Positions 16,404-24,707 of a stretch of DNA of 53,685 bases are shown here, in pieces (positions within the stretch are counted from its first letter, which is position 1; the number at the start of each line of letters is the position of its first letter). Position numbers and translations under genes: made by a program. Source of the stretch: Desulfurobacterium atlanticum (lineage in GTDB: Bacteria; Aquificota; Aquificia; Desulfurobacteriales; Desulfurobacteriaceae); the NCBI RefSeq assembly GCF_900188395.1, contig NZ_FZOB01000010.1, positions 1-53,685 of the forward strand. The letters are read 5' to 3'. Under the pieces are notes generated by a model. It saw only the letters and a list, made by a program, of their open reading frames with translations, did no database searches and was not told the DNA's origin.

Positions 16404-16568
16404 CCGCAACAGTGAGAGTGTTTGAAAATTCTCATTTGTTTCTAAAAGGTATTGAGATTCTTCGGCTGCAAAGCAGCCTCAGAATGACGATGAAAGTCAT
16501 CCTGAGGGCAAAGCCCGAAGGATCTCTTAAAGTTCATAGCCATTTTTCAAACAGCCTCCCGCAACAGT
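16404..16568. mobile_element. MITE-like foldback element with flanking 10-bp duplication
   Basis: A 145-bp element at 16414-16558 has imperfect terminal inverted repeats: GAGAGTGTTTGAAAA on the left and, read from the right end inward, GAGGCTGTTTGAAAA. It is flanked by a 10-bp direct repeat CCGCAACAGT (16404-16413 and 16559-16568), as expected for a target duplication. Inside, 16454-16526 is a large imperfect palindrome with two 12-base arm pairs, each 11 of 12 paired, and small side hairpins CTGC-AAA-GCAG and GGGC-AAA-GCCC. It has no coding capacity, so it would need a transposase from elsewhere. It fills most of the 301-base gap between leuD and the histidine kinase gene. Confidence 0.75.
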
Positions 16569-16637: not shown

Positions 16638-18980
16638 ATGAAAATACGAACAAAATTTGCAATTCTCCTTACAATAATGGGACTTTTTGGCTTTTTGGCT
16701 GCAACTGTAGGTATATACGGAATGCGTATCCACGTAAGAGTGGATAACGCTATAGAAGTGGCAAACACAGAAAAGTATCTCCTTGAAAAAATTTTAAGAA
16801 GTTATCTGTTTCTAAAAGAAGGTTATGACGGAAAAATAGAGAAAGAGCTTAAAACAAGCCAGAGAATGTTTGAAATAAACCTGAAAGCTATCAAAAACGG
16901 TGGAGTTGTTCTTGTACCAAAAGAAGCCACAAACAATAACCCATTTCAAAATTTTTACATAAAACCCCTGGGAAAACAAAAGGAATACAAGCCACTTTTA
17001 ACAAAAATAGAAAGAGAATGGAAAAACATCAAAAATTTACTTACATCCAGTGCTCCACCCTATGAAATCTACATTGAATCAAAAAAGATTAAAAAAGAGT
17101 TAAACATACTAATAGATAAACTGAAACTCAGCGACGATAGGTATCTCTTTTATGAACTTGAAATAGGATTTATCATTGCAGGAACTTTCGTTTTCATTAT
17201 AATAGGCATCATGTTATTTGATGTTTCAAAAAAGATAGAAAAACTTTCCTATGCCATCACAAGTATTCCAACAGGAAAATTCTGCAAACTCTCAAAACTT
17301 CCCGAAAAATACAGAACAAACGATGAAATAGGTCAGGCGTTTATCGCAGCAGAGGAAACTTCACAACTTATATTCTCTCTCCTCGGAAGAATAAAAAAGA
17401 TGCTTCAGAACTTCCAGACAGGAAAAATTTCAAAGGTCAGAACCGACGATCTTGAAGGGAAATGGAAGGAGATAGGAGAACTCCTTAACGCCATATCGGA
17501 AAAATGGGCAGAAGGAGCACAAACTACACTGAGATGGATTGAATGTTTCAAAAAGCTTAAAAGCTGTGAAACTTGTGAAAGAAGATTTAACTGTATCATC
17601 CCTGCCGATAATCAAGGAATATACAAAGAGATCTACGGCACTTTAAAAAAACTGAAAGATGAAACAATGGTTGCAGCAGACGAAATAGATAGATTCAGAA
17701 AAGAAATTTCAAAAGCTATAAGAGAAGGGAAAACATTCATACCTTCAAGTATTGATTACTCAAAAATTCCCGATTTTCTCCATGAAATCGCAAAATCACT
17801 TGAAGATATGGCAATCTCCCTTTTAAACGCACTTTCAAGCCAGAAAATATTTCTTGCAACCGTTTCCCACGATATAAGAACTCCTTTAAACGGCATAATC
17901 GGCTTTTTAGGATTGTTAAACCAGTCTGACAAGCTTTCTCCAAAAGACAGAGAATATGTAGAACTTGCACTGTCAAGTGCAAAACAGCTTTTAAGTCTTG
18001 TAAACGATATACTGGATGTGGCAAAAATACAGGCTGAACAGATAGAACTTTACACAGAACCGATAAACATAATTAAAGTGGTTAAAGACACAGCCTACGC
18101 TTTATCTTCCAACTTAAAAGAAGGAGTAGAACTAAAATTTAACTTCCCTGAAGAGGAACTATGGGTAGAAGGAGATGAAAAAAGAATTAAACAGATATTC
18201 TTCAACCTCCTTTCAAACGCAGCGAAATTCACAGAGAAAGGCTTTATTGAAGTTGGGCTAAAAAGAGTAAAAGAGGAGAAAGAGAAAAATGCATACAAAC
18301 TTCTCTTTTATGTGAAAGACACAGGTATAGGCATTCCTTACGAAAAACAGCCACTTCTTTTCAAGCCATTCTCACAGATTAAAAGTAGAACAGCTAAGAA
18401 AGTGGAAGGCACAGGACTTGGTCTTTTCATAACCAAAAAACTTGCAAACATTATGGGTGGAGATGTGTGGGTTGATAGCAAGCCCGGAAAGGGTTCCACC
18501 TTTTATGTATTACTTGAACTAAAGAAAGCAAAACCACCAGCAAAGCAAGAACAACTTGATGAAATGGAATGTGAAAATGTGGATAAAAACCTTAAAATTC
18601 TTATTGCTGAAGATATAATAGTTAATCAAATATTTATCAGAGAACTTCTTAAAAAGAAATTCGGTATAGAAAATGTAAAAATTGTTGACAACGGTAAAAA
18701 AGCTGTTGAAGCTGCCGAAAAGGAACAGTTTGACCTGATTTTGATGGATCTTAAAATGCCTGTAATGGACGGTTTAACAGCTATAGAAGAAATTAGAAAG
18801 AAAGGAATAGATGTGCCTATATTTATGCTGACAGCAGATGCTTTCAGAGATTCTGAAGAGAAAGCTATAAAAGCAGGAGCTGATGGTTATCTTGTGAAAC
18901 CTGTTGATTTTAAACAACTCTGCAAAGCTCTCTCATACGCTTCAAAGATAAAGATGAAACGAAAAGGTGAAGAGAAATGA
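16638..18980 (+). CDS. Hybrid sensor histidine kinase/response regulator
   Basis: This 780-residue protein has a membrane span at about 6-28, an extracytoplasmic sensor region of about 145 residues, a second span at about 175-195, and a HAMP-like linker. A cysteine cluster (C303, C310, C313, C319) follows. The kinase core has the phosphorylated H411 in VSHDIRTPLNG, N-box N523/N527, DTGIGIP at 561-567 and GTGLGL at 591-596. The receiver domain (about 652-775) has acceptor D704 (LILMDLKMPVMDG) and K754. No DNA-binding output is present. The stop overlaps the HerA start by four bases, an unusual pairing. The signal sensed is unknown. Confidence 0.95.
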   Translation: MKIRTKFAILLTIMGLFGFLAATVGIYGMRIHVRVDNAIEVANTEKYLLEKILRSYLFLKEGYDGKIEKELKTSQRMFEINLKAIKNGGVVLVPKEATNNNPFQNFYIKPLGKQKEYKPLLTKIEREWKNIKNLLTSSAPPYEIYIESKKIKKELNILIDKLKLSDDRYLFYELEIGFIIAGTFVFIIIGIMLFDVSKKIEKLSYAITSIPTGKFCKLSKLPEKYRTNDEIGQAFIAAEETSQLIFSLLGRIKKMLQNFQTGKISKVRTDDLEGKWKEIGELLNAISEKWAEGAQTTLRWIECFKKLKSCETCERRFNCIIPADNQGIYKEIYGTLKKLKDETMVAADEIDRFRKEISKAIREGKTFIPSSIDYSKIPDFLHEIAKSLEDMAISLLNALSSQKIFLATVSHDIRTPLNGIIGFLGLLNQSDKLSPKDREYVELALSSAKQLLSLVNDILDVAKIQAEQIELYTEPINIIKVVKDTAYALSSNLKEGVELKFNFPEEELWVEGDEKRIKQIFFNLLSNAAKFTEKGFIEVGLKRVKEEKEKNAYKLLFYVKDTGIGIPYEKQPLLFKPFSQIKSRTAKKVEGTGLGLFITKKLANIMGGDVWVDSKPGKGSTFYVLLELKKAKPPAKQEQLDEMECENVDKNLKILIAEDIIVNQIFIRELLKKKFGIENVKIVDNGKKAVEAAEKEQFDLILMDLKMPVMDGLTAIEEIRKKGIDVPIFMLTADAFRDSEEKAIKAGADGYLVKPVDFKQLCKALSYASKIKMKRKGEEK

Positions 18981-20503
18981 ACAAAGTAGGTATTTGTGTT
19001 GGAGAAGCAACTCCAAGGGAAATAACATTTATAAGCAACGGAAATATCCAGCTTGGAGACTATGTAGAACTCTCCTACGATGGATTTAGAACCCTTGGAT
19101 TTGTTAAAGAGATACGCTGCATAAACAGAACGGTAAGTGAAGACCTTAACATAAAAGATATAGAAAAACTTAAAAGCCTAACAGACGGATTTAAAACATA
19201 CATAGGGAAAATAGCGATTCTTGGCGATGTGGAAAAAGGAATGTTTGTTCCCAGAACTCCGCCGCCACCTGGAACAGACATCTTTCCGGCATCAAAGGAA
19301 ACCCTTGAAAAAGTGTTTGGAAAAGATGACGGTAAAAAACTCAAACTTGGAACGCTGCTTACAAGGCCTGATGTAAACGTTTATGTTGATATAGACCAGA
19401 TAGTCAGCAGACACCTTGCAATCCTTGCAATTACAGGGGGCGGTAAGTCAAATACCGTTTCTGTTATCATAGAAGGTATCCTTGAAAAATTTGGAACAAT
19501 ACTTGTATTTGATATGCACGGTGAATACATAAACTTTGACTTCAGAAGAAACGGTAAAAATGTAGTAAATCGTCTTGAATTAAAATTAAACCCGGCATAC
19601 TTAAACTATAAAGAGTTTCGTCAATTCATAAACGTTGATGACAACGCATTCATTCAGGACAGGTATCTTAAAAGAGCCTTTAAAACTACACTGGAAGAGA
19701 TTTCCGCAGGAAAAATCCAGACAAGTCAGTTCTGGGGACGATTAAAAGGAGAACTTGAAGCTTACAAGGAACTTGCGAAAGAAGACCCGGATATAAAAGA
19801 AGACAGAAAATCAATTGTTGGTGTTTTAAACAAAGTAGAAGACGCAATGGAATCGTATCATGAGCTTTTTGACCTTTTTGAAAAACCGATAGTTGAACAG
19901 ATAGAACCGGGCAGTCTTAACGTTATAGATTTTTCTCAGGTTGATGAAAAGGTGGCAGACATTATTGTAAGTCACGTTTTAAGAAACCTTCTTGAAAAAC
20001 GGAAAAAATTTATCCACGGATATGAAAATGGTCTCAAATTCCCCGTTTTAACAATAATAGAAGAAGCCCATATCCTTGCATCTTCAACAATAAACACAAA
20101 ATCAAAATACTGGATTTCCCGGGTGGCAAGAGAAGGAAGAAAGTTTGGATTAGGGTTGTGTCTTGTAAGTCAAAGGCCAAAATCTCTTGACTCCAACACC
20201 CTCTCTCAGGCAAACAACATGGTAATACTTAAACTTGTAGAACCGGGAGACCAGAGACATGTTCAGCAGGCAGCAGAATCTTTAAGCAGTGAACTGGTGG
20301 AACAACTTCCATCCCTTAATGTGGGGGAAGCTCTTGTAATGGGAAAAATGATAGGTGTTCCTGCCCTTGTAAAGATAGACCTTGCAAAAAGTAAAAAGAG
20401 TGGGAAAGATATAAGTGCAGTAGAAGAGTGGCAGGAGATAGTAGAAAAGAGAAAACAGTTAGAAGAAGATATCAATAGTTTGGCGGATTTCTATGATGAA
20501 TAG
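18977..20503 (+). CDS. herA: HerA-like hexameric ATPase (DNA translocase family)
   Basis: The 508-residue protein has the HerA/FtsK-type layout. An N-terminal HAS-barrel (about residues 1-95, starting KVGICVGEATPREITF) is followed by a RecA-like domain with Walker A ITGGGKSN (152-159), DMHGEY at 179-184, and Walker B with glutamate switch TIIEEAHIL (359-367). SQRPKSLD (398-405) is the sensor segment. In archaea HerA pairs with the nuclease NurA in DNA end resection, and some bacterial HerA proteins act with other nucleases in phage defence. No NurA gene is present; the nearest nuclease-like gene is the NYN protein two genes downstream. It overlaps the kinase by four bases and the efflux gene by 11. 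Confidence 0.9.
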   Translation: MNKVGICVGEATPREITFISNGNIQLGDYVELSYDGFRTLGFVKEIRCINRTVSEDLNIKDIEKLKSLTDGFKTYIGKIAILGDVEKGMFVPRTPPPPGTDIFPASKETLEKVFGKDDGKKLKLGTLLTRPDVNVYVDIDQIVSRHLAILAITGGGKSNTVSVIIEGILEKFGTILVFDMHGEYINFDFRRNGKNVVNRLELKLNPAYLNYKEFRQFINVDDNAFIQDRYLKRAFKTTLEEISAGKIQTSQFWGRLKGELEAYKELAKEDPDIKEDRKSIVGVLNKVEDAMESYHELFDLFEKPIVEQIEPGSLNVIDFSQVDEKVADIIVSHVLRNLLEKRKKFIHGYENGLKFPVLTIIEEAHILASSTINTKSKYWISRVAREGRKFGLGLCLVSQRPKSLDSNTLSQANNMVILKLVEPGDQRHVQQAAESLSSELVEQLPSLNVGEALVMGKMIGVPALVKIDLAKSKKSGKDISAVEEWQEIVEKRKQLEEDINSLADFYDE

Positions 20504-21767
20504 GATAAGTGTGGAAATATTCAAGGAGAAGAAGAAAATCGCTCTTTTATCTATCAGCGTAAATTTTACCCTATTTATTATCAAGCTTATTGCAGGACTT
20601 ATCAGCGGAGCCACAACTCTTGTGGCAGACGCTATCCATTCTCTATCAGACCTTGCCGCTGCTGTTTCTGTTTACACAGGAATAGAGATAGCAAATAAAA
20701 AACCAAAAGAGTTTCCCTACGGACTTTACAAGGTAGAAAACCTTGTGGCTACAATAAGTGCTTTTGCAATATTCCTTGCCGGGTATGAAATTTTCAGATA
20801 CACATTCTTCAACGGAAAAGAGAAACAGCTTGATAACCTTCCCATAGCTATAGGAACTGTTATAGCTTCCATAGCCATAACATTCCTTTTCTCAAAATAT
20901 GAAGAGAAAAAGGGCAGGGAACTTAACTCTCCAAGCCTTTTAGCTGATGCAGAACACGTAAAAACCGATATGTTAAGCTCCATTGTTGTCCTTATAGGAA
21001 TAGCGGCAAACTACTTCGGTCTATTTTCAATAGAAAAAATCACCGTTCTTATAATAGTTGCTTTCATTCTTCACTCTGGATTTGAAATTCTAACAGACTC
21101 TCTCAAAGTTCTCCTTGACGCCTCAGTGGATAGTGAAACTTTAAATAGAGTTGAAAAGATACTTCTTTCATTTCCTATAGTTACCAAAATAAAGTCTTTA
21201 AAAGGAAGAAACTCCGGTAGCTACATATTCCTTGAAGCTGAAATCTACGTTGACTCAGACTCCCTTGAACAGGTGCACCAGACTCTTGATGAGATAGAAA
21301 AAAAGATAAAAAAAGAGATACCTTTTGTTGAAAAAGTTATAATTCATCCAGAACCTTACGAATCTACAAAAAGAGTAATAGCCATCCCTCTTGATGAAAA
21401 AAACTGTATAAGTGAGAAATTCTGTGATTGCGATTACATAATGATAGGAAAAGTTGACAGAGAAAAAGGAGTTATAGAAGATGTAAAAATATACTCAAAT
21501 CCTGTAAAGTGTGTTGCTAAAAGTAGAGGGGTTGAACTTGTGGAGTTTTTAAAAATGAAAGAAGTTACCTGCGTTGCCCTTTTTAAACTTCCTCTTCATA
21601 AGGGAGTATTTTATGCAATGGCTGAAAACAGAATTAAAATTGCACTTATTAAAGAAAAGAAAGAACCGTATGACATTCTGGATATGGCTTTAAATAACAA
21701 ACTTTGCTGTATTAACGCTTTAACATTTCTTGATAAAGAGGAAAAGGGAGTTTCCAATGAAAGCTAA
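20493..21767 (+). CDS. Cation diffusion facilitator fused to a NifX/NifB-type domain
   Basis: Residues 1-210 form a cation-diffusion-facilitator transporter with about six spans and both metal-site motifs: H49/D53 in DAIHSLSD and H155/D159 in EHVKTD. Residues 211-290 look like the usual cytoplasmic dimerisation domain (LEAEIYVDSDSLEQVHQ). From about 294 to 400 the protein resembles the dinitrogenase iron-molybdenum cofactor-binding fold: RVIAIPLDEKN, then CISEKFCDCDYIMIGKV, then RGVELVEFL. This tail is cysteine-rich (C305, C311, C313, C340, C360, C405, C406). It probably exports divalent metal such as zinc, iron or manganese, with the tail as a metal or cluster sensor; that role is inferred. 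Confidence 0.82.
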   Translation: MMNRISVEIFKEKKKIALLSISVNFTLFIIKLIAGLISGATTLVADAIHSLSDLAAAVSVYTGIEIANKKPKEFPYGLYKVENLVATISAFAIFLAGYEIFRYTFFNGKEKQLDNLPIAIGTVIASIAITFLFSKYEEKKGRELNSPSLLADAEHVKTDMLSSIVVLIGIAANYFGLFSIEKITVLIIVAFILHSGFEILTDSLKVLLDASVDSETLNRVEKILLSFPIVTKIKSLKGRNSGSYIFLEAEIYVDSDSLEQVHQTLDEIEKKIKKEIPFVEKVIIHPEPYESTKRVIAIPLDEKNCISEKFCDCDYIMIGKVDREKGVIEDVKIYSNPVKCVAKSRGVELVEFLKMKEVTCVALFKLPLHKGVFYAMAENRIKIALIKEKKEPYDILDMALNNKLCCINALTFLDKEEKGVSNES

Positions 21768-22344
21768 AGATATACTTGAACGGGATAAAATATTCAGCCA
21801 TCTTAATGTGGCGGTTTTCATTGATATGCAAAATCTCTATTACGGTGCAAAAACATCTTTAAAAAAGAAAATAGATTTTAAAAGATTACTTGAAATAGCT
21901 GTAAGAGGAAGACACCTTTACAGAGCCATCGCATATCTTGTTGACCTTGACAATGTTAATCAGGGAAGTTTCCTGTATGTTCTTAAAAGTCTCGGTTATG
22001 AAATAAAACTGAAACAACCTAAAAAATTTTACAGCTGGGACAGAGTAGAATACAAAGCAGACTGGGACATGGGTATAGCGATTGATGCGATAGCCATGGC
22101 AGAATCTGGAAAAATAGATGTAGCGGTAATAATGAGCGGTGATGGTGACTTTGTTGACCTTGTAAATTTTCTTAAAGCAAAGGGAATCAAAGTAGAAATC
22201 ATATCTTTTAAATCGATCACCGCAAAAGAACTTATAACTGCAGCAAACGAATATATAGACCTTGGAGAAGTTGCTGACTTTATAGTACTGGAGGAAACGG
22301 AAAATGGAGATAAAGATTTATCCACTGGGAATGTTAGCAGTTAA
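21757..22344 (+). CDS. NYN/LabA-like (PIN-fold) putative nuclease
   Basis: This 195-residue protein is a NYN-domain protein of the LabA/DUF88 type, a PIN-like fold often with RNase activity. The acidic site residues are visible: D23 in VFIDMQNL, D104 in ADWDMGIAID, and D129/D131 in IMSGDGDFVDL. The start at 21757 is chosen over 21730 because GGGAG lies six bases before it. The gene overlaps the efflux gene by 11 bases and the next gene by 41 bases, so it is tightly coupled. Its target is unknown. Its place near HerA is discussed in findings. Confidence 0.88.
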   Translation: MKAKDILERDKIFSHLNVAVFIDMQNLYYGAKTSLKKKIDFKRLLEIAVRGRHLYRAIAYLVDLDNVNQGSFLYVLKSLGYEIKLKQPKKFYSWDRVEYKADWDMGIAIDAIAMAESGKIDVAVIMSGDGDFVDLVNFLKAKGIKVEIISFKSITAKELITAANEYIDLGEVADFIVLEETENGDKDLSTGNVSS

Positions 22345-22945
22345 CACTCTTCTTGTGTTTGATGAAGATAGCAGAGAAGCCTTTATAGTTGACCCTGCTG
22401 GAGAGCTTGATGACATAATTTCTGAAGTTGACAGGAAAGAATTGAAAATAAAGTACATAATCAACACCCACGAACACCCTGACCACACAGCAAAAAATGC
22501 CTGGGCAAAACTCACATTTCCAGAAGCCAAACTTGTAATGCACCCTGAAACTGCAAAAACAGTAAACATGTGGATAGAATCGGATTTTGGAAAAAGTATA
22601 GGAGCAGAATATTCTCCGGAACCAGACTTAAAAGTTAATGAAGGAGATGTTTTAAGTATAGGTAATAAAGAATTTAAAATATTCCATACTCCAGGACACT
22701 CTCCCGGAAGTATCTGTATATATAACCCTGAAAGCAACTTTGTTATTGTGGGAGACCTTATTTTCAAAGGGAGTATTGGCAGATATGACCTTCCAGGAAG
22801 CAACTATGAAGAGTTAAAACAATCAATAATCAAACTTTTAAGTAATGTGGAAAAAGACACAACCATAATCCCGGGACACGGACCAACCACAACAGTAGAG
22901 GAAGAGCTTCTTGACAATCCTTTCATTAGGGAGATTGTCTCGTGA
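22304..22945 (+). CDS. MBL-fold hydrolase, glyoxalase II-like (YcbL type)
   Basis: A 213-residue metallo-beta-lactamase-fold protein. Metal ligands are visible in THEHPDH (residues 55-61), PGHSPGSICIY, VGDLIFKGSIGR and the final PGHGPTT. The overall length and motifs fit the small glyoxalase II-like YcbL group, which may hydrolyse thioesters such as S-lactoylglutathione or related thiols; the substrate cannot be told from sequence. GGAGG lies about nine bases before the ATG. The start lies 41 bases inside the NYN gene in another frame. Its stop overlaps the next gene by four bases. Confidence 0.88.
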   Translation: MEIKIYPLGMLAVNTLLVFDEDSREAFIVDPAGELDDIISEVDRKELKIKYIINTHEHPDHTAKNAWAKLTFPEAKLVMHPETAKTVNMWIESDFGKSIGAEYSPEPDLKVNEGDVLSIGNKEFKIFHTPGHSPGSICIYNPESNFVIVGDLIFKGSIGRYDLPGSNYEELKQSIIKLLSNVEKDTTIIPGHGPTTTVEEELLDNPFIREIVS

Positions 22946-23433
22946 CAACTGGAACCCATATTCTCGCAGGAGTTATAGCTGCACTTTATCTAAACCTGCC
23001 TGTTCTTCCTGCAGTGATTGGATCAGTAATCCCTGATATAGATATAAAAAATGGATTTCCAAAGAAAAGAAACCTTTTTAATACACACAGAGGAATAACC
23101 CACCACATTGCAATTCCTGTTACACTAATAGCTTTAAGCTTCTACTTAAAAGAAACTAACTTCAGTCTAATCTACAAAAACCTACTATCATTCTCTATAG
23201 GATACACAACCCACATTCTACTTGACACATTAACTCCTCTTGGTATTCCGTACACTCATAAATTTTACCCAAGAATATCTCTTAAAGTTTTTAGAAGCAA
23301 TAAGATAAGTGAGATAATTGTATTTTTAGCGCTACTTTTAATCTTAACTACTGTTCTAAACAAAAAGAAGCTTAATTTAAATTCTCTGATAGGAGAAGAA
23401 AATATTTCTATTATTAACAGTGTGCTAAAATAG
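22942..23433 (+). CDS. YdjM/DUF457-like membrane-bound metal-dependent hydrolase
   Basis: The 163-residue protein has about four hydrophobic segments and the DUF457/YdjM pattern: TGTHILAG (His6), VIPDIDIKNG (D32, D34), THRGITHH (H49, H54, H55) and GYTTHILLDTLTPLG. These histidines and aspartates probably bind metal at the membrane face. The family's biochemical role is poorly known; E. coli YdjM is an SOS-regulated inner-membrane protein. The start is GTG within a GTGA overlap with the MBL gene. Confidence 0.85.
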   Translation: MTTGTHILAGVIAALYLNLPVLPAVIGSVIPDIDIKNGFPKKRNLFNTHRGITHHIAIPVTLIALSFYLKETNFSLIYKNLLSFSIGYTTHILLDTLTPLGIPYTHKFYPRISLKVFRSNKISEIIVFLALLLILTTVLNKKKLNLNSLIGEENISIINSVLK

Positions 23434-23467: not shown

Positions 23468-24130
23468 ATGAAATTCTTCATAGATACGGCTGATATAAAC
23501 GAGATAAAAAAAGCTTATGAACTTGGATTAATTGACGGAGTAACAACCAACCCAACACTAATAGCAAAAACAGGTAAACCTTTTATGGAAGTTGCAAAGG
23601 AGATACTGGAACTTGTTGACGGTCCTGTAAGCCTTGAAGTTGTTAGTCTTGATGCAAAAGGAATGGTGGATGAAGCAAGAGTTTTAGCAAAGCTTGGAGA
23701 CAATGTTGTTATAAAAATCCCTATGACAACAGAGGGACTTAAAGCTGTAAAAATTCTCTCTGAAGAGGAAATTAAAACAAACGTAACTTTGGTTTTCTCC
23801 CCCCTTCAGGCACTTTTAGCAGCAAAGGCAGGAGCAACGTATGTTTCTCCTTTTGTCGGAAGACTAGACGACATAGGCCACGACGGTATGGATCTTATAT
23901 CTCAAATAGTTGAGATATATAGTAATTACGGCTTCTCAACAGAAATAATAGTTGCAAGTATAAGACATCCAAAACACGTACTTGAAGCTGCCCTTATAGG
24001 TGCAGATATAGCAACAATTCCTTTTAAAGTTATAAGTCAGCTTGCAAAACATCCATTAACAGATAAGGGCATAGAAAGATTCCTTGAGGACTGGGCAAAC
24101 GTTCCAGATAAGGATTCTATTTTCAAATAA
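23468..24130 (+). CDS. tal: Transaldolase (small TalC/fructose-6-phosphate aldolase type)
   Basis: The 220-residue enzyme is the short transaldolase type. It starts [19 protein letters not shown], has [11 protein letters not shown], and the Schiff-base lysine is probably K83 in [27 protein letters not shown] and [14 protein letters not shown] are also typical. It transfers dihydroxyacetone units between sugar phosphates in the non-oxidative pentose phosphate pathway; an aldolase activity cannot be excluded. GGAGG precedes the ATG. A 34-base gap separates it from the preceding overlapping gene run, so it may be cotranscribed. Confidence 0.93.
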
Positions 24131-24152
24131 ATCCTCTTGTGCGGGGGCAATT

Positions 24153-24707
24153 GTGACAGAAAAGGAGATTCTTAAACAGTATATAGGAGAGGCGAGGGAA
24201 CATTTCCAGAAAGGGGTAGAAAAGCTTGATGAACTTGAGCAAACTGTAACAATTCTCGCAAAAACTCTCAGTATGTATAAAGAACTGATAGACCTATCCA
24301 CCTTTGTTCCAAAAGAAAAGCTAATCAAATACAGATTGAGCAGACTTCTTAAAAGAATGGCTTTTGACAAAACAAAAACAATAATGGGTATAAGAATAAA
24401 GTTTCATTTTGGTAACTATGAAGATTTAAGGAACATGATAGTTAATTACATAGACAACCACATAAGACCTACTGACACCTTGTTCCTATTTGAAGACGGC
24501 AGTTTAGGCATTATCTACATACTTGATAAAAACCTTGAATCAAAAGTGAAAGTTTTGACAAGAATTGAGGAAATTCTTTCAAATTTTGAAATTCAACTTG
24601 ATTACAAAGTAAAATCACACATAAAATGGGAACTTTTCTCAACAGAACTTGATGCTACTGACTCAATTGAAAATTTCCTGACAAGACTAAAAGAGGGGAA
24701 AGAGTAG
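24153..24707 (+). CDS. Protein of unknown function, possibly a degenerate GGDEF-like domain
   Basis: This 184-residue protein was not recognised with confidence. Residues 1-50 are helical and probably coiled coil (EAREHFQKGVEKLDELEQTV). The rest alternates strands and helices: IMGIRIKFHFGNYEDLRNMI, then RPTDTLFLFEDGSLGIIYIL, then an EILSNFE helix. The order resembles a nucleotide-cyclase fold in which the GGDEF loop is replaced by FEDGS, so it would be catalytically dead. The start is a GTG at 24153, because the longer upstream reading would run through the transaldolase end. It lies 22 bases after the transaldolase stop. Confidence 0.6.
   Translation: MTEKEILKQYIGEAREHFQKGVEKLDELEQTVTILAKTLSMYKELIDLSTFVPKEKLIKYRLSRLLKRMAFDKTKTIMGIRIKFHFGNYEDLRNMIVNYIDNHIRPTDTLFLFEDGSLGIIYILDKNLESKVKVLTRIEEILSNFEIQLDYKVKSHIKWELFSTELDATDSIENFLTRLKEGKE

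Follow-up and report, generated by a model that had tools for sequence, protein, structure and literature searches.

A conserved HerA-containing gene block in Desulfurobacterium atlanticum is best read as a mixed operon, with HerA most likely paired to an unlinked NurA

The six overlapping genes at positions 16638 to 23433 of the 53,685-nt window (the whole stretch of DNA analyzed, from Desulfurobacterium atlanticum contig NZ_FZOB01000010.1 of assembly GCF_900188395.1) are very probably part of an ordinary mixed operon in a thermophile whose genome is compact, and HerA most likely acts with an unlinked NurA in DNA-end resection. HerA would be a canonical archaeal-type translocase that resects double-strand DNA breaks in complex with a NurA encoded at another locus, and the NYN protein would be an independent nuclease, probably directed at RNA. 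Unrelated jobs would fall to the metal exporter, hydrolase, YdjM membrane protein, and a transaldolase. The genes of the block may have been assembled in an ancestor of the family Desulfurobacteriaceae and would now be cotranscribed and in part translationally coupled, a sensor kinase having presumably joined the front of the block in one genus only. An earlier reading of the DNA without database searches (here called the sequence-only reading) had considered a DNA-protection module and had offered genome compaction as the alternative; that alternative is judged the better reading.

All six genes lie on the forward strand and were identified from open reading frames and Pfam matches: a hybrid histidine kinase (16638 to 18980), HerA (18977 to 20503), a cation diffusion facilitator (CDF; 20493 to 21767), the NYN protein (21757 to 22344 from its ATG start, the longest open reading frame beginning with TTG at 21730), an MBL hydrolase (22304 to 22945), and a YdjM-family membrane protein (PF04307; 22942 to 23433). 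With NYN taken from the ATG at 21757, successive genes overlap by 4, 11, 11, 41, and 4 bases. The sequence-only reading had described these frames and overlaps accurately, and Pfam agrees with its domain call for each of the six proteins. Overlaps are common throughout the window, which was counted in favor of an ordinary mixed operon: 16 of 56 same-strand neighbors overlap, 37 of 56 are at most 20 bases apart, and the genome is 96% coding by the open reading frame count used here. When the overlap labels were shuffled, a run of at least five overlaps arose in about 5% of trials. The overlaps alone are therefore weak evidence, and the five-overlap run is only mildly unusual for so compact a genome. 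Scans for promoters and terminators returned fewer sites than were found in shuffled sequence and are uninformative. The proposal that these genes are made together is supported: one transcription unit is very probable, and the gene order from HerA to YdjM is kept across the family.

To delimit the block, its genes were followed through the 22 genomes of Desulfurobacteriaceae (family f1; the window belongs to genus g1). HerA was found in 22/22 genomes and adjoins the block in 20/22, where it lies about 1.2 to 1.3 kb from NYN on the same strand. In the loci that were read, the CDF gene fills the gap between HerA and NYN, and NYN is followed by MBL, YdjM, a transaldolase-like gene (TalC, named from sequence reading without a profile; 23468 to 24130 on the forward strand), and a family-conserved last gene (24147 to 24707, forward strand). 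TalC is 84 to 90% identical across the family. The product of the last gene has a long N-terminal coiled coil followed by a degenerate GGDEF fold from which the GGDEF motif is absent. HerA-CDF-NYN-MBL-YdjM-TalC is thus a genuine cluster that most of the family has conserved, and such family-wide conservation of gene order is strong evidence that the block is more than chance. The conserved unit, HerA-CDF-NYN-MBL-YdjM-TalC-(GGDEF-like), differs from the kinase-to-YdjM span originally delimited: the order from HerA to YdjM held up when checked against relatives, whereas the kinase is specific to one genus and the tail of the block had been missed. The two exceptions both belong to genus g3, in which HerA is located elsewhere and CDF-NYN-MBL-YdjM-TalC are still together; the departure of HerA from an otherwise intact cluster was counted for a mixed operon. 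The MBL-YdjM overlap is exactly 4 bases in most genera of the family. NYN and MBL overlap by 41 bases, or a similar number, in genera g1, g3, and g6; the remaining genera lack this overlap. A literature search for published work on mixed operons in Aquifex found no supporting paper.

HerA is a single protein of about 500 residues with a HAS-barrel (PF09378), a DUF87 domain (PF01935), and a HerA_C region (PF05872), and its closest solved structure is the Sulfolobus solfataricus HerA 4d2i (residues 4 to 493 aligned, 367 bits). Its top model is the archaeal HerA equivalog NF040937, at 426.6 bits against a cut-off of 800, so that it is not a formal member. It is the only true HerA in the genome; the other two DUF87 matches are a match of 32 positions and one below the cut-off. 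A profile search of the genome recovered a full-length NurA on another contig (G000:C6:16405-17253; 88 bits, cut-off 21), with AVDGS and DGS motifs that are invariant among nine Desulfurobacteriaceae members. The description of this HerA as lacking NurA is accordingly true of the operon and false for the genome. A separate NurA beside a second HerA had been named as evidence against the module; NurA is indeed present elsewhere, yet the HerA of the block is the only one in the genome. In total, NurA is present in 22/22 genomes of Desulfurobacteriaceae and in 37/41 of Hydrogenothermaceae (family f4). Among near-complete genomes (completeness of at least 90%), it is present in 16/16 and 26/26, respectively, and every HerA-bearing genome there has NurA. 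NurA also occurs in genomes of family f3 that lack a HerA of the present type and so is not strictly dependent on it.

Linkage of herA and nurA is usual in archaea, yet it is no functional requirement. The two genes are apart in D. atlanticum, with nurA on contig C6 and herA on contig C10, and they are likewise unlinked in a single-contig relative (G123) and in genomes of Desulfurobacteriaceae and Hydrogenothermaceae with long contigs. None of the Aquificota genomes checked by coordinates has them linked. In archaea and Deinococcus, HerA and NurA are established as a resection complex (PMC4351679, PMC5715905, PMC9960219). The complexes of Sulfolobus, Thermococcus, and Deinococcus share with the present protein a HerA composed of a HAS-barrel, a DUF87 ATPase, and a C-terminal region, and the present genome likewise encodes a NurA with conserved motifs as well as a weak, below-cut-off SbcD/Mre11-like match. 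The arrangement differs: herA-nurA adjoins rad50-mre11 in most hyperthermophilic archaea (PMC2288612) and is handled as an operon in Deinococcus (PMC9960219), whereas herA and nurA are unlinked here. Because of this separation, which counts against the present reading, their pairing rests on elimination and homology, from which HerA most likely works in trans with the NurA encoded elsewhere in the genome. A literature search for HerA-NurA in Aquificae found no paper.

Second HerA-like genes occur in some relatives. In one Hydrogenothermaceae genome (G083, L072:3375-5318), a few kilobases from nurA lies a gene for a HerA-like protein (about 650 residues) that begins with a PLD nuclease domain, and similarly spaced HerA-like matches occur in several other Hydrogenothermaceae genomes. 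Such genes were rejected as a source of NurA's partner in D. atlanticum: the one that was read is a PLD-nuclease/HerA fusion, and no gene of this fusion type was found in the present genome. In genome G131 (L082:1429-5074), a 633-residue HerA stands next to a 577-residue protein whose C-terminal part gives a NurA-like match, likely a defense-type HerA/NurA beside the housekeeping pair.

The NYN protein is LabA/DUF88-like with a PIN-like fold. Its acidic residues D23, D102, D104, D129, and D131 are intact and are kept in 17/17 aligned relatives, and the structures nearest to its predicted model (pLDDT 86) are VPA0982 and the MARF1 NYN domains. It shares fold and acidic residues with these LabA/DUF88 proteins and differs in having no OST-HTH or other attached RNA-binding domain. 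The structural model suggests an RNase, that is, an RNA-directed nuclease. For a broader view of its neighborhoods, one genome for each of 85,000 bacterial and archaeal species was scanned, and 80 NYN loci were kept. HerA lies in the flank of 11 of the 12 loci from Desulfurobacteriaceae. At the 68 loci outside the family (from Hydrogenothermaceae, archaea, Patescibacteria, Aminicenantes, and others), HerA, CDF, MBL, YdjM, and TalC were found nearby in 0/68, in a search that used profiles built from Desulfurobacteriaceae and included some short flanks. The three genomes of genus g22 (G074 to G076, 96 to 99% complete) have HerA and NurA and lack an NYN ortholog. Taken with the unlinked loci outside the family, this indicates that HerA co-occurs more consistently with NurA than with NYN.

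In Hydrogenothermaceae, the operon partners of HerA are different. A phosphoribosyltransferase comes after HerA in 5/6 loci and a Tll0287-like protein in 4/6, the genes overlapping or lying a few bases apart (L063, L064, L075, L076, L080, and L168). That the partners change between families, from CDF-NYN-MBL to phosphoribosyltransferase-Tll0287, was counted for an ordinary mixed operon. The NYN ortholog of Hydrogenothermaceae is directly upstream of grpE-dnaJ in 7/8 loci (L067 to L070, L078, L079, and L081), and this placement was counted in the same direction. The adjacency is a possibly meaningful link of a LabA-like nuclease to heat-shock chaperones.

The CDF protein matches Cation_efflux and ZT_dimer in Pfam. 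Its C-terminal domain (residues about 290 to 424) resembles Nitro_FeMo-Co (NifX/NafY): PF02579 matches the CDF of 7/8 family members (best E value, 6.9e-8), the window copy being degenerate (E value, 0.18), and a profile of the domain matches MTH1175 and related solved structures. A literature search found no paper describing a CDF fused to a Nitro_FeMo-Co domain. The MBL protein (Lactamase_B) is a glyoxalase II-like hydrolase of the metallo-beta-lactamase fold with a THEHPDH motif. The sequence-only reading had noted that the family of YdjM is SOS-linked in E. coli. A profile search of the genome for the LexA DNA-binding domain (PF01726) gave no match, and the same search was positive in 10/14 control genomes; the E. 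coli link is thus not transferable here, and SOS regulation of this ydjM was rejected.

The kinase comprises HisKA (residues 403 to 467), HATPase_c (512 to 629), and Response_reg (654 to 765) domains and, as had been noticed, has a receiver and no DNA-binding domain. It is found at the front of the block only in genus g1. A cysteine cluster between its membrane part and kinase core (C303, C310-x2-C313-x5-C319; residues 303 to 319) is shared unchanged by all four kinases of the genus and is possibly a metal or redox sensing site. Upstream of the kinase, the intergenic region carries the core of a REP-like palindromic repeat (GCAAAGCCCGAAGGATC; 16508 to 16524, forward strand), one of 25 genomic matches with at most one mismatch (24 elsewhere); the reversed control gave 0.

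Several more specific explanations of the block were weighed against the mixed operon. HerA and NYN could form a dedicated motor-nuclease complex made from one operon, comparable to HerA-NurA, HerA-Sir2, or HerA-DUF4297. The two proteins, whose never occurring together elsewhere had been considered fatal to the pairing, are indeed neighbors across Desulfurobacteriaceae, with HerA-CDF-NYN contiguous in 20/22 genomes, intact catalytic acids in NYN, and matches of PADLOC profiles for HerA and for an NYN nuclease. We nevertheless regard such a complex as very unlikely: the CDF gene intervenes between the two, NYN remains with CDF and MBL in genus g3 where HerA is gone, and the NYN model resembles VPA0982 and MARF1 domains. 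The choice of NYN as the nuclease of HerA is not supported in view of the NurA in the genome, the 0/68 linkage outside the family, and genus g22, and by the last two results the pair was rejected as a general unit; a literature search for a HerA-NYN system found no paper. That HerA of Desulfurobacteriaceae uses NYN as a second, family-specific partner besides NurA, its ring switching between two nucleases, is more doubtful still. An anti-phage role is not supported either. Known HerA-type anti-phage systems (HerA-Sir2, HerA-DUF4297, and others) similarly combine a HerA ATPase with a nuclease-fold protein in one operon. In contrast, the window HerA scores higher with the canonical models (426.6 and 320 bits, both also under their own cut-offs) than with the defense models NF042944 (156 bits, cut-off 850) and NF042943 (125 bits, cut-off 800), it is a core gene of the family and not patchily distributed, and the genes between and around HerA and NYN are housekeeping genes, the same throughout the family, with no defense genes among them.

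Control of a downstream DNA-protection module by the kinase through a phosphorelay is hardly credible. The 4-base kinase-HerA overlap in the window speaks for it, but in the other three g1 genomes 50, 57, and 73 bases separate the two genes; being genus-limited and separated, the kinase was ruled out as a core member. Hpt domains in the genome are found within a 684-residue frame and in one free-standing 116-residue protein, and the latter, the sole free-standing candidate, adjoins a receiver-HD-GYP gene away from the block. The suggested phosphorelay signaling is thus not supported, and nothing links the kinase and the operon products. It is less remote, although still unlikely, that the block is a stress-response regulon in which one promoter raises unrelated enzymes under heat, metal, or oxidative stress. 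The gene set has a stress flavor (DNA-end resection, metal export, RNA decay, detoxification, and envelope), its order is kept at family depth, the NYN homolog adjoins grpE-dnaJ in Hydrogenothermaceae, and the genus-level kinase has conserved cysteines. The HerA-CDF-NYN-MBL order in 20/22 genomes may result from common selection, such as selection on expression under stress, and is a point against the mixed operon. On the other side, a transaldolase belongs to the block, LexA was not found, the block has no shared regulator conserved alongside it, the kinase is limited to one genus, and the genes upstream vary among genera.

For Aquificota, the lesson of the mixed operon is that gene overlap together with family-wide synteny is not to be taken as a functional system. 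A family-wide block containing a NifX-like metal exporter and an NYN nuclease is a small gain in annotation. The analysis finds a canonical archaeal-type HerA together with an unlinked NurA in both Desulfurobacteriaceae and Hydrogenothermaceae, and the thermophiles of these two families are therefore candidates for HerA-NurA end resection.
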